Shown here: positions 17,286-45,451 of the stretch, piece by piece
Layout: every line of letters starts with the position of its first letter
Numbering within the stretch: the stretch's first letter is position 1
NCBI RefSeq assembly: GCF_937425535.1
Contig: NZ_OW485605.1
Location: 1 to 64,000, forward strand
Source of the DNA: Rhodovastum atsumiense
GTDB lineage: Bacteria; Pseudomonadota; Alphaproteobacteria; Acetobacterales; Acetobacteraceae
Length of the DNA stretch: 64,000 bases
Direction of reading: 5' to 3'
Position numbers and translations under genes: made by a program
The notes under the pieces: generated by a model
The model's input: the letters and a program-made list of their open reading frames with translations, nothing else
What the model was told of the DNA's origin: nothing
Database searches by the model: none

Positions 17286-17308
17286 TGCGTGTGCGCCCCG
17301 GGCCTGCG

Positions 17309-18304
17309 TCAGGTTGCCGTATGAAGATTCGTCTCCCTGATGATCTCCGTCGCCTCATCCATGCCCAGGGAAGGCAGGTTGGCGAGGTCGATCGTGTACT
17401 TCACGGCCACCACGCCGGAAGGCGGCACGAAGTCGTCCGGAAGGCGTGGGAATTCGTCGTCGACCGCGAAGATGGAGGCATCGCGGAGAAAGAACCGCAC
17501 GAGCTCGCCGGACCTGACCATCTCGTCCGACCAGCCGACGTTCACCAGCTTGGCCATGAACGCGTCCAACGCCGCCGCGTCGCCCCGCAGCTGGTCGGTG
17601 ACCGCATCGATAGCAGTGGCCAGCGTTTCATTCCCGCCGACGGACTCCTCCACCTGGACGGAGACCACCAGCAGCTGGCAGCCCTCCGGGGCCCGTAGCT
17701 GGTCCAGGCGGGAAATCTCATGCTCATGGCGGCTCTTGCGCGTCGTCTTGACCTCCACGTGCAGCCGCTCGCCGACGAAGTCATGTCGCTCGAACTCCGG
17801 ACCGCTCCACTGGCCGACGGCGGCCGGACCCAGGCAGGGGATCATCAGGCGCTGGAGGACTAACAGTTCGCCAAAGAGGCCGACCTGGGTGGTCTTGTCC
17901 ATCTCCGGGCGGGCTGGCTTCCATGCCGACTGCCACGCCCGGACGATGGCGCCAACCGCCGCCCATGGATCTCGCCGCTGGACCAGCACGGCGTCCACAA
18001 CCTCTCGGCAAACGGGGGTGAAGACCCGCTCGTGCGCGGGGGTGGCGGTGAGGTCCAGCACCTGACCGAGGCTCTCGAGGTGGCGATGGCGCACCCTGAG
18101 GCCGGTGAGGTCCGGCGGCTTGGGGCCTGCCGGGCCACGCTGGACGGGGACGAGGAGGTGCAGGTGGCCCGCGCTGTCCATGGCCATCAGTACCGGCGTG
18201 TCCTTGCCGCCGGCGGTGACCGGCATGGTCGCAAGGGCGTCCTCGGCGACGGGCCTCGCGGCCCTCAGCCCGGCCCATTGCTCGGGAGTGGGGCCCTCAG
18301 CCAT
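17309..18304 (-). CDS. PD-(D/E)XK motif protein (DUF4420-like)
   Basis: 331 residues. A conserved GLFGELLVLQRLM (about 143-155) precedes HDFVGERLHVEVKTTRKS (about 173-190), a nuclease core of the E...D-VEVKTT type. This matches the family annotated as PD-(D/E)XK motif protein that accompanies Z1 ATPases. Its start overlaps the end of the Z1 gene by 8 bases, and it is the last gene of the GHKL-Z1-nuclease operon. It converges on the DUF3883 gene 23 bases away. Confidence 0.8.
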   Translation of the reverse strand: MAEGPTPEQWAGLRAARPVAEDALATMPVTAGGKDTPVLMAMDSAGHLHLLVPVQRGPAGPKPPDLTGLRVRHRHLESLGQVLDLTATPAHERVFTPVCREVVDAVLVQRRDPWAAVGAIVRAWQSAWKPARPEMDKTTQVGLFGELLVLQRLMIPCLGPAAVGQWSGPEFERHDFVGERLHVEVKTTRKSRHEHEISRLDQLRAPEGCQLLVVSVQVEESVGGNETLATAIDAVTDQLRGDAAALDAFMAKLVNVGWSDEMVRSGELVRFFLRDASIFAVDDEFPRLPDDFVPPSGVVAVKYTIDLANLPSLGMDEATEIIRETNLHTAT

Positions 18305-20663: not shown

Positions 20664-22684
20664 CAGTCTCCGGTCCTGCCGAGCAGGGATTGCTGGACGC
20701 CGATCCTGTCGAGGCTGTCGAGGAAGTCGGCGAGATCGGCCAGCGCGTCCGGATCGCCGGCGATCCGCTTGGCCAGGGCAGCCAGGCTTGGCGCGGCGTC
20801 GCTCACCTGCACGTCGCGGCCGCCCGCCAGCCCCGTGCTCACCTTCCACAGGAACTTCCTGGTGGCCACGGGCCTCACCGCGATGCGCGGCGGCGGCTCC
20901 CCGCCAGCTGGCGCCGCCCCTGTCGCGCCGGAGCCTGGAGCCTGGCCGGGAACGGGCGGCGTAGTCCTCGGCACAGGCGCCCCGTGTCCGTTCCCCGCGT
21001 GTGCGCTGCCGGAGCCGCCAGCGGGCGAACCCGAAGCGGATTTGCGGTACTTCTTCTGGCTGTCCTTGCGGGCAACCTCAGCGATCAGCTTGATCTCCGC
21101 CTGCAACTGGCTCGGCAGTTGGACCAGTTGTTTGCTGATGTTGATTTTGAAGGAGTCGTCCAGGACGGTGTCGTAGTTGACGACGACGCGGGCGAGCTTG
21201 GTCTTCTCGTCGTTGGTGGACCACATCTGGTGCCAGCCGCCCCATTTGATGAGGCGGTCGTTGCGGTAGATGAACAGGCCCTGCGTCTCGTTTCTTTTGC
21301 CGTGCAGGCCGATCAGGTCGATGGCCCTGTCGACCGCCTCCTGCCCCTGGGCGGCATGGTGGGCTTTGATTTCGTCTTCCGACGGTAGCAGGAATGCCTG
21401 GATCTGCACCCGGCCGTCCCCGGTGCCGGTAGGGACCCGGATCGACTTCATGTCGTATGGCGAGGCCAGCGGATGGCCGACCGGGTTGTTCGGCTCCACC
21501 TTGCGGCCGTTGATCGTGATCGTGACGGGGCGCCGCCCGGCCGCTGTCCCCTCCAGGAAGCGGTGGAACACCAGAGCCAGGTGACGTTCGAGCTCCATGA
21601 CCTCCGCGGAATGCGGGTCGAGGCCCTTAATCGTCGGCATAGTCTGCGGCGGGCGCATGCTCTTCCAGAGCACGACCGTCCCGTGGTCCGGTATGGCCGT
21701 CGCGTCCTGTTCCCAGGTTTCCAGCGGATCCGTGCTCGGGATCCAGTCGTCCATCTCGTTGGCATCCCAGGTCATCCATGCCAGCGGGCCCCCGGCCTTC
21801 CTGGTCACGACCGTGAAGACATCTGTCTGGGACCATGAGGCGCCTTTCAGGCCGTACCCGTACTTGCCCAGGCTGTTCGCCTCGTAGCTGGCGTCGCTGC
21901 CGATGCGCATGGCTTCCGCAAGCCCGGGCGCATCCATTCCCTCCCCGTTGTCGGCGATGCTCATCCATCGGCCGTGGCCACCGTTCGGAGGCCCGAAGGT
22001 GATCGCAATCTCCGTGGCCTTCGCGTTGATCGAGTTGTCCACAAGGTCGGCGACGGCGCTGTGCATCGTGTGGCCAACGGCGGCCAGAATCCTCACGAGC
22101 CTCTTGGGGTTGGGAGCCAGTTCCATTCCCTTGCCGCTGCCGTTGGCGGTTGTGGCGCCGCCGCTTTCGATGACGCCCTTCCCGAGCAAGAACAGGTCAG
22201 GACGGGCCTTGGCCAGCGTCCGCCAGGCGTGCTCGCCCTCATCGCCGTGCAGGGCGATCATCGCCGAACTCGCCAACCTGCTGCTGTCGCCGTGGGCGAG
22301 TATGGAGCGGGCCACCTCGTCATCCTCGGGGAACACCGCCCATGCCCCAGTGGCTGGGGATGTACTCGCGTCGACCTCCATCGCGAACAGACACCCCGGG
22401 TCGACGAAGGCGTAGCACTTGTCCCTCGGGCAGTTCCCTTCCAGTCGCCAGTTCTTCTCTTGGCGTTTCAACCAGTGTGGCCTTTCAGCCACACCGGTAT
22501 CAGTCTGATACCGCATTTCGATATCAATTTTCTCGGTGTCCTTGGCCGCCGGAAAGACGCGGTCAACAACATCCCAATCGAAATTCACAGCGCGCTGCTT
22601 GGAGCCTTCTTTTCCCTGCCGCCGATACTCGTGAAACATTCCCAGTTCGCTATGGGTAAGCACGCGCAGAATTAGAAAACGCAT
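20663..22684 (-). CDS. MutL/MORC-type GHKL ATPase
   Basis: 673 residues from the ATG at 22684, chosen because the homology with the 15951 protein begins there; the frame is open to about 22747. The GHKL ATP site is complete: DLVDNSINA (213-221), SIADNGEGM (242-250) and GKYGYGLKGAS (about 276-286). Residues 1-105 (FLILRVLTHSELGMF, KNWRLEG) are homologous to the N-terminal domain of the DUF3883 nuclease. The C-terminal third has a Gly/Pro/Ala linker and a helical end. It heads the GHKL-Z1-nuclease operon. Family knowledge: prokaryotic MORC-like ATPases are linked to restriction systems. Confidence 0.85.
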   Translation of the reverse strand: MRFLILRVLTHSELGMFHEYRRQGKEGSKQRAVNFDWDVVDRVFPAAKDTEKIDIEMRYQTDTGVAERPHWLKRQEKNWRLEGNCPRDKCYAFVDPGCLFAMEVDASTSPATGAWAVFPEDDEVARSILAHGDSSRLASSAMIALHGDEGEHAWRTLAKARPDLFLLGKGVIESGGATTANGSGKGMELAPNPKRLVRILAAVGHTMHSAVADLVDNSINAKATEIAITFGPPNGGHGRWMSIADNGEGMDAPGLAEAMRIGSDASYEANSLGKYGYGLKGASWSQTDVFTVVTRKAGGPLAWMTWDANEMDDWIPSTDPLETWEQDATAIPDHGTVVLWKSMRPPQTMPTIKGLDPHSAEVMELERHLALVFHRFLEGTAAGRRPVTITINGRKVEPNNPVGHPLASPYDMKSIRVPTGTGDGRVQIQAFLLPSEDEIKAHHAAQGQEAVDRAIDLIGLHGKRNETQGLFIYRNDRLIKWGGWHQMWSTNDEKTKLARVVVNYDTVLDDSFKINISKQLVQLPSQLQAEIKLIAEVARKDSQKKYRKSASGSPAGGSGSAHAGNGHGAPVPRTTPPVPGQAPGSGATGAAPAGGEPPPRIAVRPVATRKFLWKVSTGLAGGRDVQVSDAAPSLAALAKRIAGDPDALADLADFLDSLDRIGVQQSLLGRTGD

Positions 22685-24244: not shown

Positions 24245-24463
24245 ATGGCGACGGGGGAGATGGACGGCCAGGGCCTGAGGGAAGCGCGGATCCGGTCCGG
24301 GCTGCCCGTGCGCGAGTGGGCCCGGCGCCTCGGGGTCGGCAAGTCGAGCATCGGCCGTTGGGAGACCGGGCAGCTGCCCGTGCCGCGCAAGATCGCCCTG
24401 GCGGTTGTCGGCCTGCAGGCCGAGCTGGCGGCCGCCCGGAATGCCGAGGGAGGGCGGGTCTGA
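24245..24463 (+). CDS. Small XRE-family regulator
   Basis: 72 residues, ATG at 24245 after GAGGAG. It is one HTH domain: LREARIRSGLPVREWARRLG, then VGKSSIGRWETGQLPVP, the classic XRE recognition helix and turn, followed by a short helix. Its TGA overlaps the ATG of the IbrA gene (TGATG). It is preceded by the GTCCCC-N5-GGGGAC palindrome, so it is the leading candidate for the regulator of that site and hence of the type IV-B operon. That link is inference. Confidence 0.8.
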   Translation: MATGEMDGQGLREARIRSGLPVREWARRLGVGKSSIGRWETGQLPVPRKIALAVVGLQAELAAARNAEGGRV

Positions 24464-25794
24464 TGGGCAAGCGTTACCTCGACATCGACGTCCTGACCGC
24501 CGCCAAGGAGCGCATCGCCTGGACGTTCGACCGCTTCCCGGAACGGCTCTACGTGAGCTTCTCCGGCGGCAAGGACAGTACGGTCCTGATGCACCTGGCC
24601 TGCGCCGAGGCCCGCAGGCGCGGCCGCCGGATCGGGCTGCTCTTCATCGACTGGGAAGCCCAAATGGAGATGACGATCGCGCACGTCCGGCACATGCTGG
24701 CCGAGTACGCGGATTGTATCGAGCCGCACTGGATCTGCCTCCCGCTGCGGACCACTAATGCGTGCAGCCAGATCGAGCCGGAATGGGCGCCGTGGGATCC
24801 GGCCAAGCGCGACATTTGGGTTCGCGAGATGCCGCCCGAAGCGTTCCCGGCCGACCGGTTGCCTTTCTTCAAGCCGCACGACACGTTCGAGGAGTTCGTG
24901 CGCGATTTCGCCGTCTGGTATTCCGGCGGCAAGCCGACCGCTTGCCTCCTGGGCATCAGGGGCGACGAGGCGAGCACGCGCTACATGGACGTCGTCGACC
25001 GCGGCGGCCGGGACCGCATCGACCCCGACACGGGCGAGGTCGTCCGCATCGGTCACGAGCGCCTGGAAGGTCGGTCCTGGACGGTGAAGCTGAACCTGGG
25101 GACGGCGGACGCGCCGATCTACAACTGCTCGCCGATCTACGACTGGCGCACCGAGGATCTGTTCACCTACCTGGGCAAGTTCGGGCTGGCCTACAACCCG
25201 CTCTACGACATGATGCACAAGGCGGGCCTCAAGCTTTCGCAGATGCGCATCTGCGAGCCGTATGGCGACGAACAGAGGAAGGGCCTCTGGCTCTACCACA
25301 TCGTCGAGCCGGAGACCTGGCAGAAGGTGGTCAACCGTGTGGCTGGCGCCAACACCGGGGCGCTCTACAGCCGCGAGCGCGGGAACGTCGCCGGGGTCGG
25401 CAAGGTCCGCCTCCCGCCCAACATGCCGACCTGGAAGGCGTACGCCGAGTTCCTGCTCGACACGATGCCGCATGCCACGGCGGAGCACTACCGGAGCAAG
25501 ATCGCCACGTGGCTGCGCTACTACCAGCAGCACGGCTACCCCGACCTCAATATCCCCGACAGCAAGGACGGCGACACGGGGGTCAAGGACGTCGCCTCCT
25601 GGCGCCGCGTCTGCAAGTGCCTCATGCGCAACGATTATTGGTGCAAGACCATTGGATTCTCGCCAACGAAGACCCAGAGCTACGAGCGCTACCAGCGCAT
25701 CATGGCCAGGCGCCGCGAGGAGTGGGGCATCATGGCCAGCGGGGCTTCCTCCGAGGCAGCGTCAACAACTTTCTCGCATTCGGCGTGCGCATGA
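24463..25794 (+). CDS. ibrA: IbrA-like PP-loop enzyme (PAPS reductase family)
   Basis: 443 residues. PP-loop YVSFSGGKDSTVLMH at about 26-40, then LLFIDWEAQ, and a second conserved stretch AVWYSGGKPTACLLGIRGDEAS. YNCSPIYDWRTEDLFTYL (about 220) is the family's substrate-side motif. The C-terminal Cys motif of true PAPS reductases is missing, as in IbrA, DndC and phage relatives. These enzymes activate a substrate with ATP for sulfur or nucleotide chemistry; the substrate of IbrA is not known. It overlaps the XRE gene start to stop and lies just upstream of the GNAT-HTH-IbrB operon. Confidence 0.85.
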   Translation: MGKRYLDIDVLTAAKERIAWTFDRFPERLYVSFSGGKDSTVLMHLACAEARRRGRRIGLLFIDWEAQMEMTIAHVRHMLAEYADCIEPHWICLPLRTTNACSQIEPEWAPWDPAKRDIWVREMPPEAFPADRLPFFKPHDTFEEFVRDFAVWYSGGKPTACLLGIRGDEASTRYMDVVDRGGRDRIDPDTGEVVRIGHERLEGRSWTVKLNLGTADAPIYNCSPIYDWRTEDLFTYLGKFGLAYNPLYDMMHKAGLKLSQMRICEPYGDEQRKGLWLYHIVEPETWQKVVNRVAGANTGALYSRERGNVAGVGKVRLPPNMPTWKAYAEFLLDTMPHATAEHYRSKIATWLRYYQQHGYPDLNIPDSKDGDTGVKDVASWRRVCKCLMRNDYWCKTIGFSPTKTQSYERYQRIMARRREEWGIMASGASSEAASTTFSHSACA

Positions 25795-25797
25795 CGC

Positions 25798-25833
25798 TTG
25801 CCTTATGCGCAATAGTTCCTATATATTAGGAAC
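25798..25833 (+). promoter_or_regulatory. Promoter with palindromic operator GTTCCTA-N5-TAGGAAC
   Basis: TTGCCT (25798-25803) and TATATT (25822-25827) are 18 bases apart. The palindrome GTTCCTATATATTAGGAAC (25815-25833) contains the -10. A second small inverted repeat GCGCAT/ATGCGC (25787-25792, 25805-25810) flanks the -35. Same architecture as 541-577. Drives GNAT, HTH and IbrB. Confidence 0.7.
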
Positions 25834-25866
25834 ACAAGCCGACGCGAGGTCGGCACGGAGGGGAAG

Positions 25867-26328
25867 ATGACGAAGCACACCGAGACCGCCCTCACCTACG
25901 TGACGCTGACCCAGGCCGACGGCGCCGCCTTCTGGGTGAAGCTGGGCCCGCTCGCGACCGATGCGGCGGCCGTGAAGGAGATCGGCAGCCAGATCGTCAA
26001 CAACGAGCGCTACACCTGGGTGTTCGCCCTTGACGGCGACGAGGTCGTCGGCTGCGGCGCGTTCGTCGCGCCCAGGAAGTCGGGCGACCCGGCGTGGCTG
26101 GACTTCGGCTACGTGAAGCCATCGCACCGCTGGCAGGGGATCTGGAAGGAGCTGTTCGACCGCCGCATCGCGCTGGCGCGGTCGGCGGAGGTCACGCACC
26201 TGCGCGTCTGCACCCGCGTCCTGGCGCGCGCCCTCGAAGCCCGCGGGTTCGCCACGTACCAGCAGCGCGGCTCGTGGTCCTACATGGAGCGCGACCTGAC
26301 CGCAGCCCCAACGGCCAAGGCGGCCTGA
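25867..26328 (+). CDS. GNAT-type acetyltransferase
   Basis: 153 residues, ATG at 25867 after GGAGGGGAAG. Central pattern: WVFALDGDEVVGCGAFV (strands 2-4), WLDFGYVKPSHRWQGIWKELF as the acetyl-CoA loop (consensus Q/RxxGxG/A, here RWQGIW), then LRVCTRVLARALEARGF. This is a GNAT domain of about 140 residues. Small GNAT genes are common beside IbrA/IbrB pairs in phages. Target unknown. First gene of the operon, and its stop is 1 base from the next ATG. Confidence 0.75.
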   Translation: MTKHTETALTYVTLTQADGAAFWVKLGPLATDAAAVKEIGSQIVNNERYTWVFALDGDEVVGCGAFVAPRKSGDPAWLDFGYVKPSHRWQGIWKELFDRRIALARSAEVTHLRVCTRVLARALEARGFATYQQRGSWSYMERDLTAAPTAKAA

Positions 26329-26329
26329 C

Positions 26330-26605
26330 ATGTCGCTGGACCTCCTCAGGACCGCCGGAGAGGCGGCCTTCGGGGCGGACTGGCAGCGGCCGATGGCGCG
26401 CGCCCTGGGGCCGCTGCATCCGTCGGGCGCCAAGAAGGAACTCTCCGACAGGCTGGTGCGGATGTGGGTCGCCGGCGACCGCCCGGTTCCTGCCTGGGTG
26501 GCTGCGGCGCTCCCGGCGCTCCTCGAGGCCGAGGCTGCCGAACACGACCGCCAGGCCGCCTCGCTGCGGAAGTTGGCGGGCAAGATAAGGGGGAAGGCAT
26601 CGTGA
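26330..26605 (+). CDS. Small HTH-like protein, paralogue of the 1301 gene
   Basis: 91 residues. Shares with the 1301-1600 product the order AEWQR or ADWQR, ALGPLHP, SDRLVRMWVAGDRPVPAWV, ALPALLE, then a charged helix. The middle fits a compact helix-turn-helix. It lies second in its operon, as does its paralogue, and both operons have the same type of palindromic promoter. It is the best candidate for a repressor of the palindromes at 559 and 25815. Confidence 0.65.
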   Translation: MSLDLLRTAGEAAFGADWQRPMARALGPLHPSGAKKELSDRLVRMWVAGDRPVPAWVAAALPALLEAEAAEHDRQAASLRKLAGKIRGKAS

Positions 26606-27234
26606 GCACACAGGACATCGTCGCCCAGGCCAAGGCGCTCTTCGCCGAACTGGACGCCCTGCCGGACGACGCGCGCATGGACGCGGTCAACGAGATCCGG
26701 CTGGCGCTGCACGAACACTCGCCGATGCGGAGCGAGCCGGTAGATTGTGTCATCTGGGTCAGGCAGGACGCCGTTCACGCCAACGACTACAACCCGAACT
26801 CGGTCGCCCCGCCCGAGATGCGTCTCCTGCAGCTCTCTATCCAGGCGGACGGCTACACACAGCCAATCGTCGCCATGTCGGAGGAAGACGGCCGCTACGA
26901 AATCGTGGACGGCTTCCACCGCAACCGCGTCGGCCGCGAGGTCGGCGCCGTCCGGAAGCGCGTGAAAGGGCGGCTGCCGATCGCCGTCATCAACGCGGGC
27001 CGGACGTCGCGCGAGGATCGGATGGCCGCCACGATCAGGCACAACCGGGCACGCGGCAAGCACAGCGTCGACACGATGGCCGACATCGTTGTCGACCTCC
27101 ATCGGCGCGGCTGGGACCAGGAGAAGATCGGCAAGGAACTCGGCATGGACGCGGACGAGGTCCTGCGCCTCAGACAGACGACCGGGTTGGCGGCGGCGTT
27201 CGCCGACAGGGAGTTCTCGAAAGCCTGGGAATAG
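26602..27234 (+). CDS. ibrB: IbrB-like ParB/Srx-fold protein
   Basis: 210 residues, GTG start overlapping the upstream stop (GTGA). Residues about 48-125 match the ParB N-terminal domain: VRQDAVHANDYNPN, LQLSIQADGYTQPIV, YEIVDGFHRNRVGRE (ParB box II, normally GERRxRA, here DGFHRNRV), then RAARIRHNRARGKHS-like ATIRHNRARGKHSVD. The C-terminal part has a helix-turn-helix (QEKIGKELGMDADEVLRL). The product resembles IbrB, the usual partner of IbrA. Together they form a PP-loop plus ParB-domain module whose chemistry is not established. Confidence 0.85.
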   Translation: MSTQDIVAQAKALFAELDALPDDARMDAVNEIRLALHEHSPMRSEPVDCVIWVRQDAVHANDYNPNSVAPPEMRLLQLSIQADGYTQPIVAMSEEDGRYEIVDGFHRNRVGREVGAVRKRVKGRLPIAVINAGRTSREDRMAATIRHNRARGKHSVDTMADIVVDLHRRGWDQEKIGKELGMDADEVLRLRQTTGLAAAFADREFSKAWE

Positions 27235-27293: not shown

Positions 27294-27887
27294 TCAGGCC
27301 GCCGTGCGTTCGGCGGCCGCCGCCATCGCCGCGGCGTTGATGTCCCAGCGCCGCAGCAGGGCCCTGGCGATGTCGGCCGGGTCTTCGGCGTACTCGGACG
27401 CCAGGTCGGCGGCGGCGTCCACGCCCTCCCACCAGCTCATGATGGAAGCGGCCGCCTCCGGACGGACGCCGACGGAGGACCGCTCCTCGAACGCCGTGGC
27501 GAGGTAGATGAGTCCGTCCGGCGACGGCTGCACCCAGGCCAGGCCGCAGCGGAGCCGGACCTTGGCGCCGACATTGGAGAGGATGGCGGCGATGTGCGTG
27601 AGGACCGTGCCCTCGGCCATGTGGTCCCACGCGTTGACGAACTGCCACGCCTCGTTCGCGGCCTCGTCGCACTCTCCGTCCTCGAGCATGGCGGCGATCT
27701 CGTCCCCGTCCGGCATCCCACACAGAACGAGCTGCTCGGCGACGGCATCGGTGACCGCCCACTCGGAGATGTGTCCGTGCGGGCCGACGGCGCGCAGCAT
27801 GTCGGTTCCCGTCCGCTCGATGCCAAACAGGCCAGAGGCGTCCATGACGGTCGTCGACAGCAGCTGTGGGATGATGGTCGTGGTCAT
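27294..27887 (-). CDS. Hypothetical protein, paralogue of the 27970 gene
   Basis: 197 residues, ATG at 27887. It shares with the 27970-28554 product an N-terminal motif TVMDASG-x-FG, a matching middle with AVGP-x-G, a CG(I/L)-rich strand, and a C-terminal helix ALLRRWD / AALARWD. The middle is acidic (EDGECDEAANEAW). No known family, no membrane segments. It is the last gene downstream of the type IV-B operon. The intergenic hairpin before it is duplicated in front of its paralogue, so the pair arose by duplication of gene plus leader. Confidence 0.65.
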   Translation of the reverse strand: MTTTIIPQLLSTTVMDASGLFGIERTGTDMLRAVGPHGHISEWAVTDAVAEQLVLCGMPDGDEIAAMLEDGECDEAANEAWQFVNAWDHMAEGTVLTHIAAILSNVGAKVRLRCGLAWVQPSPDGLIYLATAFEERSSVGVRPEAAASIMSWWEGVDAAADLASEYAEDPADIARALLRRWDINAAAMAAAAERTAA

Positions 27888-27969: not shown

Positions 27970-28554
27970 TCACGCGTCCGCAGCGAACGACAGCGGCGCG
28001 GTTTCGGAGTCCCACCGCGCCAGCGCGGCGCGGGCGACCTGTTCCGACTGGCGGCCGAACTCGGACGCCAGGCTTTCCAGGACATCGCTGGCATCCCAGC
28101 GGCATGCGATGGTCACGGCGGTCTCGGGGGTCGTGCCGTTTACCGACATCTCACCTGAGAACGCCGCGAGCCTCACGAACCCGTCGCGGCACGGCTGCAG
28201 CCGGAGCAGGTAGTCGGGCCGGGCCCCCTCGCAGGGCGAGGGATGCTCGAGGCCGAACAGGGGGAGCGAGTATCCGGCCAGGGCATCAATGATGCCGCAG
28301 ACCGAGAATTCGGCCTCCTCGTCCCAGACTTCGTCGAACATGCGCGCGTCGGAATCGGTGAGCCTGCCGATGCAGGTCGCCATGAGGTCGGCGGCGATGT
28401 CTCTGTTGACGCTCCACTTGGAGGAACGTCCGGTCGGCCCGACGGCGCAGACCGTTCCTGGTGTCGCGCAGCGCAGCCCGAAACTGCCAGACGCGTCCAT
28501 TACGGTATCGCCGACAGCTCCGGGCAGTCTGTTGATGGTGGTTTCCACTGGCAT
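27970..28554 (-). CDS. Hypothetical protein, paralogue of the 27294 gene
   Basis: 194 residues, ATG at 28554 with AAGGAAGAT upstream. Clearly related to the following gene (TVMDASGSFGLRC, AVGPTGRSSKW, LARWDSE). Several Cys are unshared with the paralogue (CATPGTVC, CRDGF, CRWDA). It lies 72 bases after cysH, with a hairpin in between, so it may be transcribed at reduced level from the type IV-B promoter. Function unknown. Confidence 0.65.
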   Translation of the reverse strand: MPVETTINRLPGAVGDTVMDASGSFGLRCATPGTVCAVGPTGRSSKWSVNRDIAADLMATCIGRLTDSDARMFDEVWDEEAEFSVCGIIDALAGYSLPLFGLEHPSPCEGARPDYLLRLQPCRDGFVRLAAFSGEMSVNGTTPETAVTIACRWDASDVLESLASEFGRQSEQVARAALARWDSETAPLSFAADA

Positions 28555-28625: not shown

Positions 28626-29423
28626 TCACAGTTCCTGGGAAAGGCCGGGGTAGCGCTCGACGAGGGCGTGCCAGAGTTCCGGGTCGCGGAGCTGGATGCG
28701 CCTGGCCATACCGCGCGCCCAGACATTCGGCGCGAACCAGGCGTCGTCCGAGCGTTCCCAGACGCGGTCCTCCGCTTCGTCGTAGCGCGCGAGGTAGGGC
28801 AGCCCTCGGCCAAGGATTGCTGCCCAGACATCGCGCCCGCTCCAGTCGTGCAGCGGGCAGCATGTCCATCCGGGGCGGCTGGCGACGCGGTAGAGCCAGC
28901 CCTTGCGAGAGATGGTGATCGCGCGCGCCATCGATTCCTCGCGGCGCATGCCCATGATGATGCCCGTCCACCCCTGGCGCTCCTGGAACGCCGTGAGCTC
29001 GGCCTTGTAGGTCCGCTCCCACCAGCGAGCCGCCTCCGTGACGGCCTCCTGGCCGACAGCGCCAGGCGCGAAGAAGCGGTCAGCGCCCACGCGGTCGATG
29101 GCCTCCATCTCGGAGGCGACCTCGACCATGACGAACGGCAGCCCCCAGCGGACGGCGAGCGCGCACGCGTTCGCCGTCGGCTGCGGGTCGTAGTCGCCCC
29201 GGTAGGCGAAGTGGAACACCGGGCCCCTCCAGCCCGCCTCGACTGCGACGGCGAGCGCGGCGGTGCTGTCCTTGCCCCCGGAGCAGCCGACCGCCCACGT
29301 GCCCGGTGCGGCCGCCAGCGCCTCGCGGACGCGCCCGGCGGCGCGCTCGACCGCCCGCTTGTGGGCGGGCAGCCTGGCATGGAGGCGCGCGGCCTCCATG
29401 CTGAAGTCCTGGACGTAGCGCAT
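28626..29423 (-). CDS. cysH: CysH-like PP-loop enzyme of the type IV-B locus
   Basis: 265 residues, ATG at 29423, two bases after the upstream stop. The PP-loop reads VGCSGGKDSTAALAV (about 44-58), followed by FHFAYRGDYDPQPT, IIMGMRREES and WTCCPLHDWSGRDVWAAI, the substrate-side motif that matches YNCSPIYDW in the IbrA-like protein. The ECGLH-type Cys motif of PAPS reductases is absent. A cysH-like gene is the characteristic accessory gene of type IV-B CRISPR-Cas loci; its role there is unknown. It is the sixth gene of the operon starting at csf1. Confidence 0.85.
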   Translation of the reverse strand: MRYVQDFSMEAARLHARLPAHKRAVERAAGRVREALAAAPGTWAVGCSGGKDSTAALAVAVEAGWRGPVFHFAYRGDYDPQPTANACALAVRWGLPFVMVEVASEMEAIDRVGADRFFAPGAVGQEAVTEAARWWERTYKAELTAFQERQGWTGIIMGMRREESMARAITISRKGWLYRVASRPGWTCCPLHDWSGRDVWAAILGRGLPYLARYDEAEDRVWERSDDAWFAPNVWARGMARRIQLRDPELWHALVERYPGLSQEL

Positions 29424-29425
29424 CG

Positions 29426-29683
29426 TCAGCCCTCGAAGATGGTGGCGACGGCAGGCATGCCGCCCGGGTGCTCCGAGGGCACCACGAAGGCCCGGAAGCG
29501 GAAGGGCGCCCTGGTGCGGACCACCACCGTCACCCCATCGCGCTGCGGCTTCAGGCGCACGTCAGGCGACTCCAAGGACTTGATGATGGCCGCCAGCGCA
29601 TGGCGCTCCGGGAGCGGCGCGATGCGCTCCCGGAACCGCCGGACGGCATGCGGCGTGACGAAGTAGCCGCCGGCGATGCTCAT
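29426..29683 (-). CDS. 85-residue protein inside the type IV-B operon
   Basis: 85 residues, ATG overlapping the csf3 stop (ATGA). Pattern GGYFVTPHAVRRFRERIAP at 5-23, a conserved small-protein motif (YxVTxHAxxRFxER) seen in many phage genes, then an amphipathic helix and a beta hairpin with VTVVVRTRAPFRF. The shape is compatible with a small RNA-binding or RelE/BrnT-like protein, but this is not shown. Its place between csf3 and cysH with overlapping reading frames suggests a role in the same complex. It is not one of the standard type IV-B genes I know. Confidence 0.7.
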   Translation of the reverse strand: MSIAGGYFVTPHAVRRFRERIAPLPERHALAAIIKSLESPDVRLKPQRDGVTVVVRTRAPFRFRAFVVPSEHPGGMPAVATIFEG

Positions 29684-30387
29684 GCCGCCGCCCTCGCGCT
29701 TGCGGCGAGGGCCTCGAACGGGTCGGGCACCACGCACATGACGCTGTTTGCCGCGAGGTGCTTGGGCGGCCGGATAGCGTGCATCGCCCGCCGCCCGCGG
29801 ATGCCGTGCTCCTCTGCGTAGCCGATGGGAACCGGGCGTACGATCTCGCCCGCGAAGCCATCCCTGATCTCCCAGCGGCTGACCTGCCCCAGTCCGCGCG
29901 AATGGCCAGAGCCGACAGACGTCATCTGCGTTACCAAGCGCTCCACCTCCCTCGGGTCGCCGATGCACTTCCACGACACGCTGGCGCACGTGCTGACGAA
30001 GTGAGGCTTGCGGAGGTTCTTGTGCGGGCCCGTCGCCGTCTCGACCTTCCGGCCGTTGAACCAGCGCTCGGCGTCCACGCTGTTGAACCGCCGATGGAAG
30101 TACTTGTCGCGCTGGCCGAGGATCTCCGACGGCTCCGGCATCCCGGCTGCGTACCACCACAGGTCGCCGTGCATGACGACCTGCAGGGGCAACCCTTCGA
30201 CGGGCGCGAGGTCTAGGTTCGTGCCGAAGTCGGGGCCCAGGCGCTCCCGCATTGCCGCCCAGGCGAGCATGCCGTCGATGCTGGGGGACCACGCGTCGGC
30301 CGAGGCGTAGCCCGCGGGCGTGTAGGCGGTCACCGTCAGGGGGCGGAACGCCCCCTGGGTGACCTCGAGAGAGGTCAGGCTGCGCAC
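29680..30387 (-). CDS. csf3: Csf3 (Cas5-like) of type IV-B
   Basis: 235 residues from a GTG at 30387 with GGAGG upstream, overlapping csf2 by 13 bases. The N-terminal strand FRPLTVTAYTPAGYA, then SIDGMLAWAAMRERLG, LPLQVVMHGDLWWYAAGMP and a Gly-rich region GSGHSRGLGQVSRWEI (about 165-180) fit the Cas5/RAMP fold as seen in Csf3. It should hold the 5' handle of the guide RNA and contact Csf1. No catalytic residues are expected. Known alternative: another RAMP subfamily, but the order of neighbours makes Csf3 most likely. Confidence 0.8.
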   Translation of the reverse strand: MRSLTSLEVTQGAFRPLTVTAYTPAGYASADAWSPSIDGMLAWAAMRERLGPDFGTNLDLAPVEGLPLQVVMHGDLWWYAAGMPEPSEILGQRDKYFHRRFNSVDAERWFNGRKVETATGPHKNLRKPHFVSTCASVSWKCIGDPREVERLVTQMTSVGSGHSRGLGQVSRWEIRDGFAGEIVRPVPIGYAEEHGIRGRRAMHAIRPPKHLAANSVMCVVPDPFEALAASARAAA

Positions 30388-31301
30388 CCGAGCACCTCCT
30401 TCACCGCGTCGACGCTGGCCGCCAGGTGCGCCTCGTATTCGCCCATCACCTCCCGGGCGAACGGCGACAGGCGAACGCCGTCGTGCGGGCACACGCGCAC
30501 GAAGCCCTCATGCCGCTTGCCGTCGGCGACGAGCGCGTAGGCGAGCCTGACCAGCCCGTGCCCCTTGTTGTTTTGGCCGCCGATGAAGGGGCTGGCGCCG
30601 AAATCGTTCAGGGCGGCGACGAGGCAGCCGAGTTCCACGCGGCTGACATAGGCGCCGTGGATTTCGGTGCGCAGCTTCGCCCCGGGCGCCAGCAGCTCGG
30701 AGGTCATCCGCATCTGGTCGGCGACCCTCGTGTTCCTGGGCGCCTCGTCTCGCGCCAACCAGTCGGCGGTCCAGCCCAGCTTGCCGTCGTCCTTGCGCGA
30801 GAACTCCTTCTCCCACGTCAGGCTGCCGTAACGGATGACGGACGCCTCGGCGTGGTCCTCCTCCGGCAGGACTGGGATGGCCTCGCGGCACAGCGGGTAG
30901 CTGTTGGTCACCCGCAGCCGCCCTTGCAGGATCTCGGAGCCGACGCCGCCGCCCAGGAGCGCCAACATCGGCACGGTCGCCCGGATGCGACGGGCCGCCT
31001 CCAGGTCGACTCGCTTCTCGGCCATGTCCAGGCGGCCGCCGCTGAACAGGAGGTGGAACGCATCGCCGGGCAGGCGGCAGTCCAGGGCGGCGCACACGCG
31101 GCGCGCCATGATGTCGCGCAGCCCGCCGCGCCAGCCGTTACCCGAGTAGGAGAACACTTCCACCACGCTGCCGTCCGGCTGCACGATGATGTCCTGCGCC
31201 AGGTAGGCCGTCGTGCTGACGACCTCGCCGATGTGCGAGACGGGCGACAGGGCGGTGAAGTGGCCGGTCAGCTTGATGGTCTTGAGGACGTTGTTGGGCA
31301 C
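30375..31301 (-). CDS. csf2: Csf2 (Cas7-like backbone) of type IV-B
   Basis: 308 residues, GTG at 31301 with AAGGAG 7 bases upstream. It opens with LKTIKLTGHFTALSPVSHIGE and YSGNGWRGGLRDIMARR (about 49-65), the RAMP pattern of Csf2 (SGNxxRGxLR). LLGGGVGSEILQGRL, and later FGASPFIGGQNNKGHGLV near 265 (Gly-rich loop), complete the Cas7 signature. Cas7 subunits bind guide RNA repeatedly along the complex. With csf1, the cas11-like gene and csf3 in order on one strand it defines a type IV-B locus. Confidence 0.9.
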   Translation of the reverse strand: MPNNVLKTIKLTGHFTALSPVSHIGEVVSTTAYLAQDIIVQPDGSVVEVFSYSGNGWRGGLRDIMARRVCAALDCRLPGDAFHLLFSGGRLDMAEKRVDLEAARRIRATVPMLALLGGGVGSEILQGRLRVTNSYPLCREAIPVLPEEDHAEASVIRYGSLTWEKEFSRKDDGKLGWTADWLARDEAPRNTRVADQMRMTSELLAPGAKLRTEIHGAYVSRVELGCLVAALNDFGASPFIGGQNNKGHGLVRLAYALVADGKRHEGFVRVCPHDGVRLSPFAREVMGEYEAHLAASVDAVKEVLGCAA

Positions 31302-31339
31302 GTGTGGTCTCCTTGAAGGATGGGATGTCTGGTGAGAGG

Positions 31340-31810
31340 TCAGGCGGCCTCGAAGAGCTCCAGCTGGAACTCAGCTCCCTCATCGATGACGCCCTGCTTC
31401 CCGGCGGCCTTGGCGGCCTCACGGGCGACGCGCTCGCGCTCGAGGCGCTCCCGGACGAGCAGGACGCACAGCGACGTCTCGCGGTGCAGCACGCGCAGCA
31501 CGGCATGCGGGTCGGCGGGCGGGGCGTCGAGGATGGAGGTCAGCGATGCGAAGTCGCGCGTCGCCCCCTGTTCCTCTCCGGCTTCCCGGACCGGGCGGAG
31601 CACCTCGCACCCAAGGCGGGGCATCAGCCGCTCGATGAACGTGGGCAGGCTGTCGGCGCGCTTCGCGGCGGCCTTCACGAACCGCTCGATGCGCGACCAC
31701 ATGTCGAGGCTGACCTTGAGCCGCGCGACGTCGCGCGAGCGGTAGACGACGTAGATGAGCAAAGCGGCAACAGACGCGTCCGCCCGCTCGGTGTCGAAAC
31801 CGAGTGTCAT
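31340..31810 (-). CDS. cas11: Cas11-like small subunit
   Basis: 156 residues, ATG at 31810 after GGAGAG. Predicted all-helical and basic, with VASLLIYVVYRSRDVARLK-like ALLIYVVYRSRDVARLK (about 15-31), then WSRIERFVKAAAKRA and a Lys/Arg/Glu-rich C-terminus. There is no identifiable motif, which is normal for Cas11. The position between csf1 and csf2 is the one taken by cas11 in type IV-B. Assignment rests mainly on position and helicity. Confidence 0.65.
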   Translation of the reverse strand: MTLGFDTERADASVAALLIYVVYRSRDVARLKVSLDMWSRIERFVKAAAKRADSLPTFIERLMPRLGCEVLRPVREAGEEQGATRDFASLTSILDAPPADPHAVLRVLHRETSLCVLLVRERLERERVAREAAKAAGKQGVIDEGAEFQLELFEAA

Positions 31811-31840
31811 AAGGCTCTCCGATGTCGTGGATTGGGTGGT

Positions 31841-32572
31841 CTAGCGCGCCGGGCTGGCTGCTATTGCGTGGACCAGGCGCAAGAGATGCAGGCTTTGCCT
31901 ACGAAACTGTCCGATGGCTTCTTCGTGGACCTGCCACGTCGCACGGCCGACCTTGAAGATGGATGCCGCCGAGTAGTCGCCGCTGAGCAGGTCGTCACGG
32001 CGCAGGCCGTCGGCGAGGGCCGCCTCGAAGGCGAGCACGATGTCGCCCAGCAGCCGAGGGTTCACCCAAACGGCCCTGTCCTCGACGAGCATCGCGAACA
32101 GATCGCCGTCCTCAGCGATGAGGCCGCGGTAGACGAGGTTCTTCATGCCGGTGTTGGTCATCACCGCCATGAAGCGGCCCCCGGGCGGTGATGTCAGGAC
32201 GCGCCGCCAGTCCTCCCGGCGCGGGATGATGTGCCCCAGGCTCTCCGAGAAGATGTGGGAGTACGAACGCCACGACGCCTGGGGCCAAAGCTTCACCTGC
32301 AGGCCGCGCCGCACGATGGTCGCGTGGAAGGTCTTGCCGATTGCGAAGTGCACGCAGGCGCAGCAGACCGCGCGGCTGTGCTGGACGGAAAGGCTCTCGG
32401 AGGGGCCGAACGATTCCGAGATGGCCTTTTCACGGCGCCACGCCCGGCCATAAGCGTGCGCATCGCCGCCGCAGACAGCGCAGCGGGCAGGCTCTTCCGG
32501 GTACGCTTCGCGGTGGGTGGGCTGCACGGCGTCCTCTCCGAGGCAGGCCAGAGCGAATGAGCAGGGATGCAT
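31841..32572 (-). CDS. csf1: Csf1 (Cas8-like large subunit) with zinc finger
   Basis: 243 residues if ATG 32572 is used; the frame opens to a GTG at 32614 whose extra codons coincide with the operator at 32586-32603. A CxxC pair (CAVCGG, 31-36) and a second (CCACVH, about 70-75) form the zinc finger typical of Csf1. The rest is mixed alpha/beta (FMAVMTNTGMKNLVYRG, about 135-152). Csf1 takes the Cas8 place at the 5' end of the crRNA. First gene of the operon. Confidence 0.8.
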   Translation of the reverse strand: MHPCSFALACLGEDAVQPTHREAYPEEPARCAVCGGDAHAYGRAWRREKAISESFGPSESLSVQHSRAVCCACVHFAIGKTFHATIVRRGLQVKLWPQASWRSYSHIFSESLGHIIPRREDWRRVLTSPPGGRFMAVMTNTGMKNLVYRGLIAEDGDLFAMLVEDRAVWVNPRLLGDIVLAFEAALADGLRRDDLLSGDYSAASIFKVGRATWQVHEEAIGQFRRQSLHLLRLVHAIAASPAR

Positions 32573-32585
32573 GTGAGGCAAGTCC

Positions 32586-32630
32586 TGTCCCGTGGTGGGG
32601 ACAAGATGGGGCACGCAGGATCGCCGTCCA
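32586..32630 (-). promoter_or_regulatory. csf1 operon promoter and operator
   Basis: On the minus strand TGGACG (32630-32625) is followed 16 bases later by CATCTT (32608-32603) and then by the palindrome TGTCCCCACCACGGGACA (32603-32586). The palindrome starts at the end of the -10 and so covers the likely transcription start. It matches the operators at 24210 and 33957. It lies 14 bases upstream of the csf1 ATG. Confidence 0.65.
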
Positions 32631-38086: not shown

Positions 38087-38755
38087 ATGAAGGTCGTCTC
38101 GGTGGTTCAGCAAAAGGGCGGAGTTTCAAAGACTTCGATTGCGACTGCCCTGGCAGTCGCGGCCTCGATGGAGGGTAAGCAGGCCGCTGTTTTTGACCTC
38201 GACCCCCAGGGCTCAGCCGCATTTTGGAAGGACACGCGGAAGGCCGACGAGCCAGCCGTGGTTTCCGTTCAACCCGTCCGCCTCAAGCACATGCTGGCGG
38301 CTGCTAAGGAAGCCGGGACCGAACTCGTGGTCATCGACGCGCCCCCAATTGCCAAGGATGTCGCCTACCAGGCGGCGGAGGTCTCCGACTACATCCTGGT
38401 GCCTACGAAGCCGAGCGTCCTGGACGTCATGGCGATGACGGAGACCCTCAAGCTCATCAAGCGGGCAACTGAGCCGCCTGTGCCCCATGCTGTCGTCCTG
38501 ACCCTGTGCCCGCTGCAGGGACGAGAGGTCGTGGACACCGAGGAGGCCGTCAGGAAGCTTGGTGCCGAAGTCGCTCCGGTCCGGCTTCACAACCGGATCG
38601 CCTATTCGCGCGCCCAGCAGTCCGGTCTGACTGCCATGGAATACGAGCCGGAAGGGAAGGCGGCTGCTGAGTTGCGCCAGCTATACGAGTTTGTGTGTAT
38701 GCACGTATGGCCTCATACGGTCACACGGAAGCCAGAGAAAGCCGCTGCAGCATGA
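38087..38755 (+). CDS. parA: ParA-family partition ATPase
   Basis: 222 residues. Deviant Walker A KGGVSKTS (10-17), Walker A' VFDLDPQGSA, Walker B VVIDAPP (about 80). Length and lack of an N-terminal DNA-binding domain mark a type Ib ParA (ParF-like). The Gly of KGGVGKT is Ser. It partitions the plasmid together with the small protein downstream, whose start overlaps its stop (ATGA). Confidence 0.9.
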   Translation: MKVVSVVQQKGGVSKTSIATALAVAASMEGKQAAVFDLDPQGSAAFWKDTRKADEPAVVSVQPVRLKHMLAAAKEAGTELVVIDAPPIAKDVAYQAAEVSDYILVPTKPSVLDVMAMTETLKLIKRATEPPVPHAVVLTLCPLQGREVVDTEEAVRKLGAEVAPVRLHNRIAYSRAQQSGLTAMEYEPEGKAAAELRQLYEFVCMHVWPHTVTRKPEKAAAA

Positions 38756-39159: not shown

Positions 39160-40116
39160 CTAAAGCAACTGAGACGGCAGCGTCAGGACCTTCGGGGATA
39201 CTGGCGGTTTGGATGGCTTCAGGATCAGGCCATCTTCCGCCACATCCACCCTGGCTTCCGGGTAAGCGGCCATTGCCGCGCTGAAGGAATCGATGAACCG
39301 CGGCTTCCAATGGCTCAGTTTCCCGAACCCGGCGCCGAATTGGTCAAATAGGGCCCGCCACGACACGTCAGTTGGCCCTGAGAGAGCATGCAGGCGGTAG
39401 GCAAGCCAGACATACACATCCAGTCCCATGCTCCGGTCGCGAAGCGCTTTCACAGCCTCCTCAAGAAGCGGAACGGGATGTTCGCGTAGGGCGGCGTAGA
39501 AGTCCTCGTCGAGGACAACAGTGTCTTGCCATGAGTCCTCGGACCTGTGGAAAGACAGGCCGCGCTTGATGATCGCTGCCCGTTGGAAAGCGGTTGCCCG
39601 GCCTTCCTCGGCCTTCCAGAAGAATTTCAAATTGCACGCCGAGAGCCGCATGGCCTGATCGCGAACGGCGGCCGCCTGCTCGCCGCCGATCGACATCCCC
39701 ATCCGTTTCATCCAGCGGTTCATATTGCCGCCCAGGTGAACCTCGCGGCTGCGGGTCTTGATGGCTTCGGACATCAGGAAAATGACGATCAGCCGGGCCC
39801 GGGCGCCGTAGGGAACCCCGAATTCCCGGGTTTCGCCATCGATGACCATTCGGCCGGGTTCCACGAGCAGGGTCACCTGATGCCCGTCGCGGCGCCATGC
39901 CTGACCTTCGGGAAGAGCCTTGTGGGGAAGCGACGCGAGGCAGAACCCGCTGTAGCTAATACCGAGCCGCCCGCGTTCGTCGGCGAGGACATCGGCGGAG
40001 ATCCGGACGAGCTTGGCTTCCTTGTGGCGTCCCTGAGCCTTGAGCGTGGCCACGGCCTTTTCTCGCCCCTGTTCCAGGACCAGTCGCGGCACCTCCGATG
40101 TGTCACTCGCGCTCAT
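39160..40116 (-). CDS. repA: Plasmid replication initiator RepA
   Basis: 318 residues. The sequence has the layout of the RepA_C (plasmid-encoded RepA) family: LASLPHKALPEGQAWRR near 60, FGVPYGARARLIVIFLMSEA about 100-120, GGNMNRWMKRMGM, and near the end MGLDVYVWLAYRLHAL followed by a tail. These initiators bind iterons beside the gene, and an iteron array lies directly upstream at 40155-40527. It faces away from parAB. Confidence 0.85.
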   Translation of the reverse strand: MSASDTSEVPRLVLEQGREKAVATLKAQGRHKEAKLVRISADVLADERGRLGISYSGFCLASLPHKALPEGQAWRRDGHQVTLLVEPGRMVIDGETREFGVPYGARARLIVIFLMSEAIKTRSREVHLGGNMNRWMKRMGMSIGGEQAAAVRDQAMRLSACNLKFFWKAEEGRATAFQRAAIIKRGLSFHRSEDSWQDTVVLDEDFYAALREHPVPLLEEAVKALRDRSMGLDVYVWLAYRLHALSGPTDVSWRALFDQFGAGFGKLSHWKPRFIDSFSAAMAAYPEARVDVAEDGLILKPSKPPVSPKVLTLPSQLL

Positions 40117-45160: not shown

Positions 45161-45451
45161 TCATTGCTTCCAACAAACGGTGATGATGGTGCCATCCTCG
45201 GCAACGACGATGTAGGCGTTGCGGTAGCGCTCAAAGTATTTGGCCTGCACCCCTAAGTATTCAGCGAACTTGCGCCAGCCGCGTTTGGAGAAGGAGTAGG
45301 AGGAAGCCCCGCAACCCGCATCCCTGCGGTCGCCCCAGCCGAGCAACCCGTCGTGAATGAACTGCGGTATCGAGCGCTGCTGGGTGCGGACAGCAGCGTG
45401 CCTCGTCAACTTCAATGCTTGGCGGTCAGGGGAATGGCATTCGTTCCACAT
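45161..45451 (-). CDS. DUF4258-like small protein
   Basis: 96 residues, ATG 45451 directly after the upstream TAA. TRHAAVRTQQRSIPQFIHDGL (about 16-36), then YSFSKRGW and a final strand YIVVAEDGTIITVCWKQ, the shape of DUF4258 proteins (RelE-like fold). Paired with the XRE gene upstream, it could be a toxin-antitoxin system in which the XRE protein neutralises it. Confidence 0.65.
   Translation of the reverse strand: MWNECHSPDRQALKLTRHAAVRTQQRSIPQFIHDGLLGWGDRRDAGCGASSYSFSKRGWRKFAEYLGVQAKYFERYRNAYIVVAEDGTIITVCWKQ

Follow-up and report, generated by a model that had tools for sequence, protein, structure and literature searches.

The csf operon and its replicon

The window, that is the whole stretch analysed here, comprises 64,000 nt of Rhodovastum atsumiense DNA (assembly GCF_937425535.1, contig NZ_OW485605.1, positions 1 to 64,000, forward strand). 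An intact and tightly packed operon occupies positions 28626-32614 on the minus strand in the order csf1-cas11-csf2-csf3-orf85-cysH. The genes considered below are as follows, with E-values of profile matches in brackets.

31841..32572, minus strand: csf1, Cas8-like large subunit (PADLOC PDLC01721, typeIV_Cas8, 2.1e-18; TIGR03114 3.7e-7, below cut-off)
31340..31810, minus strand: cas11, small subunit (PADLOC PDLC01696, 2e-30)
30375..31301, minus strand: csf2 (Cas7), containing SGNGWRGGLRD (PADLOC PDLC01724, 6.3e-54)
29680..30387, minus strand: csf3 (Cas5), 13-nt overlap with csf2 (PADLOC PDLC01727, 4.2e-28)
29426..29683, minus strand: orf85, small accessory protein of 85 codons with a predicted RelE/BrnT-like fold, 4-nt overlap with csf3
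28626..29423, minus strand: cysH-like N-type ATP pyrophosphatase, starting 2 nt after orf85 (PF01507 2.4e-8, above cut-off)
27970..28548, minus strand: gene without assigned family, downstream of cysH and possibly co-transcribed (gene call; weak PHROG match, 0.05)
27294..27887, minus strand: gene without assigned family, N-terminus by eye like that of the preceding gene (gene call)
24463..25794, plus strand: IbrA-like protein of the DUF3440 PAPS-reductase family, oriented convergently to the csf operon (PF11922 1.2e-35)
25867..26328, plus strand: GNAT acetyltransferase between IbrA and ParB (PF00583 2e-7)
26602..27234, plus strand: ParB/Srx-like partner, IbrB-like (ParB_N 1.3e-5; its 25.5 bits narrowly miss the cut-off of 26.3)
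38087..38755, plus strand: ParA-like ATPase of the phage-plasmid (PF13614 1.5e-15)
39160..40116, minus strand: RepA replication protein of the phage-plasmid (PF04796, RepA_C, 1.1e-22)
62857-63585: putative lysozyme (one weak match, below cut-off)

A first-pass annotation of this DNA had listed the csf genes and cysH in order on one strand and proposed a genuine type IV-B system on a replicon with lysis genes. Gene calls and independent HMM matches agree on that order (the four Csf genes match PADLOC models at 2e-18 to 6e-54), and the HMM check proposed for csf1, csf2, csf3 and cas11 returned type IV families for all four. The motifs it had pointed out, two CxxC pairs in csf1 (CAVC and CCAC) and SGNGWRGGLRD in csf2, were read directly in the sequence. 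An alternative GTG start at 32614 is possible for csf1 (gene then 31841-32614). The NCBIfam equivalogs for csf1, csf2 and csf3 also match, every one below its cut-off; PDLC01724 finds only the window csf2 in its own genome. The type IV subtypes cannot be told apart by PADLOC model name, and some matches are labelled CAS-IV-A. A chance operon was rejected, given that the four Csf families and CysH match in order. The two genes downstream of cysH (27970..28548 and 27294..27887) have no homologue among the 81 other loci compared.

The contig carrying the operon is 114,898 bp long (114.9 kb) and encodes portal, terminase, major head, tail sheath and baseplate families. From these virion genes, RepA and the ParA-like gene we take the replicon to be a phage-plasmid; its circularity is unproven because the contig ends do not overlap. 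The phage-plasmid nature of the replicon thus stands, and its lysis genes come down to the single weak lysozyme match. No plasmid near-identical to 20-44 kb of the window was found, a promoter and terminator pattern scan gave nothing informative, and no non-coding RNA of known family was detected between 20 and 40 kb with an E-value limit of 0.5. Judged from the sequence, with the Csf HMM matches set beside the virion, RepA and ParA-like genes, we concluded that the phage-plasmid carries a type IV-B effector operon that is both genuine and intact.

Arrays, Cas6 and possible sources of RNA

Our own detector found no CRISPR array of at least three repeats in the window or in the rest of the 114.9-kb contig; the same detector reported an array in 1 of 80 control loci. 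A scan for two-copy repeats gave one 25-nt pair (L003:615-693), with similar pairs in 7 control loci, and neither a repeat search over 23-37 kb nor TRF over the window gave anything array-like. Profiles made from related Cas6 and Cas6e proteins had no match within the window. In the genome of the source organism, Cas6e (PF08798) matched only on chromosome C1 and the DinG C-terminal domain (PF13307) only at C1:5784919-5785371, neither on the phage-plasmid contig, and Cas6 (PF10040) had zero matches; these whole-genome negatives are not proof, because the same search gave 0 for Cas1 despite a real Cas1 (PF01867 1.7e-9) beside the host array. The claim that dinG, cas6 and an array are missing therefore agrees with what the array detector and profile searches found on the contig. 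Type IV-A, to which an array or a cas6 or dinG gene elsewhere on the replicon would point, was rejected, since these searches found no DinG, array or Cas6 on the contig.

The host chromosome carries a type I-E locus with Cas6e, 75 spacers and Cas1 by the array. This array and its Cas6e bear on the possible source of guide RNA. Targeting of the phage-plasmid by the host I-E system was considered and rejected: the best matches of the 75 spacers to the contig extend over 15-20 nt, which leaves no sign of current targeting. These data bear on a published hypothesis (PMC8175902; PMC7937560) that the Csf ribonucleoprotein is a guide-RNA sponge, which binds crRNAs or small RNAs unspecifically and blunts host I-E immunity, with CysH and orf85 serving only to load or inactivate the RNAs. 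The published type IV-B complex binds heterogeneous RNA of 55-60 nt, and a co-expressed I-E crRNA was not enriched (PMC7937560); the heterogeneous RNA, the 75-spacer host array and the failure to find an array on the phage contig all fit a sponge. The missing signs of current targeting speak against it, however, it leaves CysH without a clear role, and a pure sponge would have no need of the Cas6 genes and the array found in relatives (below). We regard it as possible but rather unlikely.

Relatives were surveyed in 93 csf2 loci, a count that includes near-duplicates (e.g. L085/L086, L028/L030 and L053/L054) and excludes L006 and L007; the profiles behind the locus counts were built from the same loci and seeded with window proteins. 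The Csf2 tree holds 75 rows of csf2 relatives only, without IV-A, IV-C, IV-D or IV-E reference subtypes; it includes L187 and L188, which were found through orf85, and lacks identical rows and domains under 170 residues (12 loci between L048 and L062, plus L070 and L075). A single-protein csf2 scan of viral contigs returned no relative. Cas6 or Cas6e genes occur in 14/93 csf2 loci and, within the Csf2 clade of the window, in the operons of 6 of the 10 rows; one clade member, L016, has a four-repeat array next to its Cas6. The lack of an array and of Cas6 holds for this contig within the reach of these searches, but not for its relatives. Among the clade members without an operon Cas6, Rhodovulum has Cas6e elsewhere, and in Aureimonas and the L170 MAG neither Cas6 family was found, so a general reliance on borrowed crRNAs does not follow.

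The same counts are relevant to classical RNA-guided interference, in which borrowed or own crRNAs would direct the complex against competing plasmids and phages by binding (silencing), with CysH secondary. Such a function would explain Cas6 or Cas6e in relatives and the array of L016, and the host I-E Cas6e could serve it as well. Yet the contig yielded no array, the single L016 spacer searched (1 of 3; 24-nt core, exact) matches its own contig only, and CysH accompanies csf2 much more regularly than Cas6 does (81 of the 93 loci, against 14). We consider this explanation improbable.

CysH, orf85 and the IbrA-ParB pair

The window CysH keeps SGGKDS together with G158, R160, E163, S164 and R167, and has no Cys after residue 189. 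These ATP-pyrophosphatase site residues are conserved over 64 csf-linked CysH homologues. Of two reviews, one regards the CysH of type IV-B as inactivated (PMC8730458) and the other describes it as being without the catalytic cysteine (PMC8175902). Against PDB profiles the protein matched 6vpu (1.5e-17). Its own profile recovers csf-linked cysH genes; at E 1e-5 a scan of phage records returned none, although the profile finds one in phage SPI1. The cysH label is present in 81/93 csf2 loci and in 79/93 lies no more than 3 kb from a csf gene. DndC of Dnd phosphorothioation was considered as an identity for CysH and rejected for want of a full-length match: the best stretch covers residues 21-59 only (1.1e-7), and TIGR03183 scored 26.4 bits against a cut-off of 290.4. 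The earlier proposal that CysH is part of the mechanism gains from the constant association and the conserved site residues; what CysH does in the mechanism we infer from its sequence.

That cysH is coupled to csf3 through an 85-residue gene is borne out by the 4-nt overlap and the 2-nt spacing, and orf85 is more than a link: it belongs to a rare small family, and its predicted fold is RelE/BrnT-like. No sequence-family match was obtained beyond a weak one to PHROG 8252 (0.067), a family without assigned function. The AlphaFold2 model (pLDDT 85.7, pTM 0.76) had as its best Foldseek match RelE1 (9g12_B, probability 1.00, E 0.024, TM 0.55), which is weak, followed by others including BrnT (3u97, probability 0.80, E 0.51) and Cami1 (8phj_X, probability 0.77, E 0.23), with an unrelated protein at rank 3. 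H12, F17, R20 and T81 are invariant in 11 sequences, and no antitoxin gene was recognised beside orf85. On the predicted fold, orf85 is a candidate RNase of RelE/BrnT type. The family sits at varied places in csf operons in 7/93 csf2 loci. An orf85 scan gave seven viral loci with csf genes (5) or ParB genes (2), among which L189 is a 20-residue match not confirmed by profile and L183 and L184 are near-duplicates. A Fisher count of 9/95 carries a bias, as orf85 itself had led to two of those loci; the fairer count is 6/92 against 0/80 (p 0.03). A locality product of 1.9e-5, computed alongside, assumes independence and uniform placement.

The window contains a second PAPS-reductase-family gene, IbrA, with a ParB partner, 2.8 and 1.4 kb from the operon, respectively, and on the opposite strand; the first-pass annotation made no mention of either. 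Pairs of this kind (DUF3440 PAPS-reductase/ParB, IbrA-IbrB-like) lie beside or inside csf operons in 10/93 csf2 loci. In the literature searched, no paper brings together DUF3440 and CRISPR, or ParB and type IV-B. IbrA occurs in 212/50,697 phage records; in 73 viral csf records, every DUF3440 copy sits at the csf operon (6/6 records). The window IbrA groups with the common phage subfamily, for which a csf gene was within the flank in 0/80 loci (best 80 of 537; flanks up to 10 kb). A second subfamily, whose choice rested on the csf linkage of its query sequences (four of five, L186 being the exception), has csf genes adjoining in 22/79 loci, on the same strand in all 22, and 17/73 loci are csf-linked after already-known contigs are dropped. 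In this second set cysH is present in 20/22 loci with csf and 0/57 without. On the Csf2 tree, 9 changes account for 10 IbrA-bearing rows (the ten include L188, found through orf85, and not L086); a sign test of IbrA against orf85 had too few pairs.

Both accessories could be hitch-hikers, orf85 a stray RelE-type toxin gene and IbrA-ParB a common phage cassette, which would reduce the system to csf1-3, cas11 and cysH. The abundance of IbrA in phage records, its csf-free flanks in the common subfamily, the convergent orientation of the window pair and the rarity of orf85 are all as expected from such passengers. The one-strand csf linkage of the other IbrA subfamily, in contrast, is not, nor is the recurrence of orf85 inside csf operons and in viral loci with csf or ParB genes. 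We think passengers unlikely for the two accessories together; the membership of the window IbrA in the csf system is uncertain.

Proposed function and comparison with known systems

The reading we prefer, held tentatively and at less than an even chance, is that a Csf ribonucleoprotein uses borrowed small RNAs and acts enzymatically through CysH. Csf1, Cas11, Csf2 and Csf3 would assemble on small RNAs that the system does not make itself, most likely crRNAs processed by Cas6e or other short RNAs of the host. With no nuclease subunit recognised, the enzymatic output would be CysH, which keeps its nucleotide-site residues and is for that reason proposed to adenylylate or thiolate the nucleic acid held by the complex rather than cut it. 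The candidate RNase orf85 may trim the bound RNA or cleave RNA near the complex. The phage-plasmid would probably gain protection or a means of competing with other elements. The CysH chemistry, the RNA source and the orf85 activity in this scheme are those we infer. Several observations weigh against the scheme: the published complex showed no enrichment of the I-E crRNA, Aureimonas and the L170 MAG gave no match to either Cas6 family, the window IbrA is convergent and of the common subfamily, the two reviews describe the type IV-B CysH as inactivated or as devoid of the catalytic cysteine, and the fold match of orf85 is weak. In its favour, the operon of related viruses includes the second PAPS-reductase/ParB cassette as well, frequently together with a methyltransferase-like gene; this suggests modification as the output and hints that type IV-B systems modify rather than cut. 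A broader version, to which we give a low probability, holds that phage type IV-B is RNA-guided nucleic-acid modification: a Csf complex with RNA processed by its own or the host's Cas6 would deliver CysH to a chosen sequence, in many phages along with a dedicated IbrA, a ParB/Srx ATPase and a methyltransferase-like protein, and the RelE-like orf85 would be its RNase. One review names the RNA source and the function of CysH as the keys to type IV-B (PMC8175902); the IbrA-ParB partner, the RNase-like orf85 and the Cas6 of relatives make that function directly testable by experiment.

The type IV-B system of Mycobacterium sp. JS623 has the same csf1, cas11, csf2, csf3 and cysH in an array-free locus on an extrachromosomal element (PMC7937560). 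Unlike known type IV-B loci, the window has orf85 between csf3 and cysH, lies on a phage-plasmid and belongs to a clade with frequent Cas6. Its Csf2 is 24-34% identical to six plasmid and phage representatives (JS623 stands outside that comparison). Skermania phage SPI1 (KR011061, L008), a tailed phage, has the same csf1-cas11-csf2-csf3-cysH order and a Csf2 34% identical to that of the window, but neither orf85 nor IbrA-ParB was found in the 17-kb stretch examined. The Fuxivirus type IV-B of Bathyarchaeia viruses, compared by its description and not by sequence, is likewise virus-borne with CysH next to csf3, but its virus is archaeal and its locus includes a mini-array (PMC10848311).

For the accessory genes, the predicted fold of orf85 resembles RelE/BrnT toxins and the RelE domain of Cami1. 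Dnd and Ssp use the PAPS-reductase-family enzymes DndC/SspD, Dnd has the ParB-superfamily protein DndB and Dpd the ParB-like DpdB (PMC12839542); CysH matches DndC only weakly and over short stretches. The closest likeness of the window pair (24463-27234) is to phage IbrA-IbrB pairs, which in L039, L170 and others lie inside csf operons, whereas the window copy is convergent with its operon.

The csf operon and its replicon

The genome of Rhodovastum atsumiense comprises 7.42 Mb in nine contigs, and the window corresponds to bases 1-64000 of contig C5 (114,898 bp). The following features of the window are discussed here:

32614 to 28626, - strand: operon csf1, cas11, csf2, csf3, orf85 (an 85-codon ORF), cysH (gene calls and HMMs)
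27294-27887 and 27970-28548, - strand: two genes with N-termini alike by eye, directly after cysH
24463-27234, strand opposite to the csf operon: DUF3440 protein (IbrA), GNAT and ParB-domain protein (Pfam)
14381-22684: Mza-like defence system with a type II-like DNA methyltransferase, MzaB (1e-38), MzaC (1e-93) and MzaD (8e-15)
45161-45451, - strand: 96-residue protein (PHROG 6182, 4.6e-5), like orf85 by eye

The first-pass annotation had read csf1, cas11, csf2, csf3 and cysH in this order on one strand, and the profile searches bear it out: the type IV models of PADLOC matched csf1 (2.1e-18), cas11 (2e-30), csf2 (6.3e-54) and csf3 (4.2e-28), and cysH matched PF01507 above cut-off. By coordinates, csf2 and csf3 overlap by 13 nt and csf3 and orf85 by 4 nt, and the start of cysH is spaced 2 nt from orf85. 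The window csf2 is the sole match to its model in its own genome. In line with the first-pass annotation, which saw no CRISPR array in the window, none with at least three repeats was found on the 114,898 bp of C5. The operon shows each type IV-B defining feature tested. IV-B or type IV loci in viruses and prophages have already been described in passages of PMC10848311 and PMC8730458.

The replicon is a phage-plasmid. A PHROG scan covered 53 of the 61 called proteins of at least 60 residues from the second part of C5; portal, head maturation protease, major head, terminase, tail sheath and baseplate were among the matches listed (25 of 104 families). The window part encodes RepA (PF04796, 1.1e-22) and a ParA-like ATPase. 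The lysis genes also ascribed to this replicon come down to one weak lysozyme match in the window part, below cut-off. The C5 contig ends show no overlap that would indicate circular closure. The Mza-like system, with a gene at 15951-17285 in its midst, shares the phage-plasmid with the csf operon. The gene pair after cysH had no homologue among 81 other loci compared.

Csf2 relatives, Cas6 and arrays

By tblastn, Csf2 relatives, all below 60% identity, turned up in 63/72,556 plasmid records and, of 50,697 phage records, in that of Skermania phage SPI1 alone; motif scans gave 73 loci in IMG/VR and 13 in GTDB genomes. The csf2 set of 93 loci, near-duplicates counted, consists of the window, six plasmid or phage records read closely and these IMG/VR and GTDB loci (L-numbers below denote relative loci). 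With our own profiles, we detected csf3 in 90, csf1 in 89, cysH in 81, cas11 in 74, IbrA and ParB in 10 each, Cas6e in 8, orf85 in 7, and Cas6 and a SpoU-like gene in 6 each. Five of the 14 Cas6/Cas6e proteins were run against Pfam (PF08798 or PF10040 above cut-off) and six against PADLOC (Cas6/Cas6e models), and every one was confirmed.

In a Csf2 tree of 75 rows, all csf2 relatives without IV-A to IV-E references, the window falls within a 10-row clade (support 100/99). According to part of PMC8175902, IV-B systems have no crRNA-processing enzyme. Since six of the ten clade rows carry Cas6 or Cas6e and one, L016, has an array of four repeats, this rule fails for the window's clade, if the clade is IV-B.

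Several loci are unusual in architecture. The IMG/VR contigs L049, L051, L052 and L059 carry csf operons and, within the same 20 kb, arrays with a repeat length of 37 nt and 9-13 repeats each, presumably cyanobacterial in style. The csf3 homologue of a Thermococcus nautili plasmid (L012, 5842-6585) is annotated as Cas6; our profile identifies it as csf3. Viral contig L048 carries several csf1, csf3 and cysH copies in series, a tandem or nested locus, and L227 and L228 have a doubled csf3-like gene in one operon (csf2-cysH-csf3-csf3-orf85).

CysH and orf85

CysH conservation was assessed over 64 distinct csf-linked domains, drawn from 80 genes at most 3 kb from csf. The P-loop residues S48, G50, K51, D52 and S53, as well as G158, R160, E163, S164, R167, P190 and W194, are 92-100% conserved and all kept in the window; C188, ahead of P190, is present in 43/64. 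The nearest solved folds by profile search are PAPS reductases (6vpu, 1.5e-17) and CysD (1zun, 1.6e-13). The window CysH looks like a working ATP pyrophosphatase. Type IV-B CysH is termed inactivated in a section of one review (PMC8730458), and AMPylation is proposed for it in part of PMC8175902. A glycosyltransferase-like gene lies near cysH in L016, L017, L022, L042 and L068; the L017 protein matched PHROG 1721 (8e-5) and no Pfam family.

Relatives of orf85 were found neither in 50,697 phage records (tblastn, E 0.01) nor, by profile, in 298 further genomes from the host family. Scanning IMG/VR for the motif yielded seven loci, two directly after ParB without csf and five with csf genes, the latter including one near-duplicate pair and one 20-residue match. 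For the AlphaFold2 model (pLDDT 85.7, from 11 sequences), RelE1 is the best structural match and BrnT, YafQ and the RelE protein Cami1 likewise rank high, all at E >0.02 and intermixed with unrelated folds; the predicted fold is likely RelE/BrnT-like.

IbrA-ParB pairs and a possible mechanism

Nine other loci of the 93 have an IbrA-ParB pair on the csf strand, either among the csf genes or no more than 0.9 kb away from them. In L039, where cysH was not found, the pair lies between csf2 and csf3; L170 reads csf1-IbrA-ParB-cysH-cas11-csf2-orf85-csf3. On the Csf2 tree the IbrA trait requires nine changes for ten rows, so IbrA would have been gained, or lost, many times. Ten csf2 proteins of IbrA-bearing loci were run and all matched type IV Cas7 in PADLOC, which gives no subtype call here, several of the best models carrying a CAS-IV-A label. 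DUF3440 occurs in 6 of 73 full viral csf records, always at the csf operon with no copy elsewhere, vs 212/50,697 in the phage background (Fisher 1.5e-5, locus L086 dropped).

Among relatives of the IbrA type in L055, L083, L170, L186 and L188 (second type), csf genes are present in 22/79 loci, on one strand in 22/22, and in 17/73 after removal of contigs already known (p 1e-6). These loci carry cysH in 20/22 cases with csf vs 0/57 without. A methyltransferase-like protein is encoded in 62/79; three such proteins scored 4.8e-5, 0.016 and no match for N6_N4_Mtase in Pfam, all below cut-off. No csf genes flank the common-type IbrA in 80 loci (best 80 of 537 relatives). The window IbrA is of this common type (60% identical to that of L087) and convergent with the csf operon, so its tie to csf in the window is one of proximity only. 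Inside the csf operons of L044, L077, L082, L084, L171 and L173 we observed a SpoU/TrmH-like 2'-O-methyltransferase gene (Pfam SpoU 1.4e-8 in L044; 2e-4, below cut-off, in L171), found in 0/80 control loci. We found no report in the open-licence literature of DUF3440 with CRISPR, or of type IV-B with ParB and CRISPR.

We tentatively propose a mechanism of an RNP on foreign small RNA, an acting CysH and a modification output, which as a whole is somewhat doubtful. The Csf RNP would most likely take up a small RNA encoded elsewhere. In R. atsumiense the obvious source would be host I-E crRNA: the only Cas6e match (PF08798) in the genome lies on the 6.48-Mb chromosome, adjoining Cas1, Cas2 and Cas5 proteins and an array of 76 repeats and 75 spacers, by these components a type I-E locus. 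None of the 75 spacers matched C5 over more than 15-20 nt. In Rhodovulum (L167) no Cas6 was seen in the csf locus and Cas6e lies elsewhere in the genome. Two observations count against borrowed crRNA: neither Cas6 family was found in the Aureimonas (L169) genome, and a published IV-B RNP showed no enrichment for I-E crRNA, as stated in part of PMC7937560. CysH, about as frequent as Cas11 (81 vs 74 of 93 csf2 loci), may be the enzyme acting on the RNP-bound nucleic acid. The output could be modification, because a second PAPS-reductase/ParB pair recurs at csf loci and such pairing is also known from Dnd (PMC12839542).
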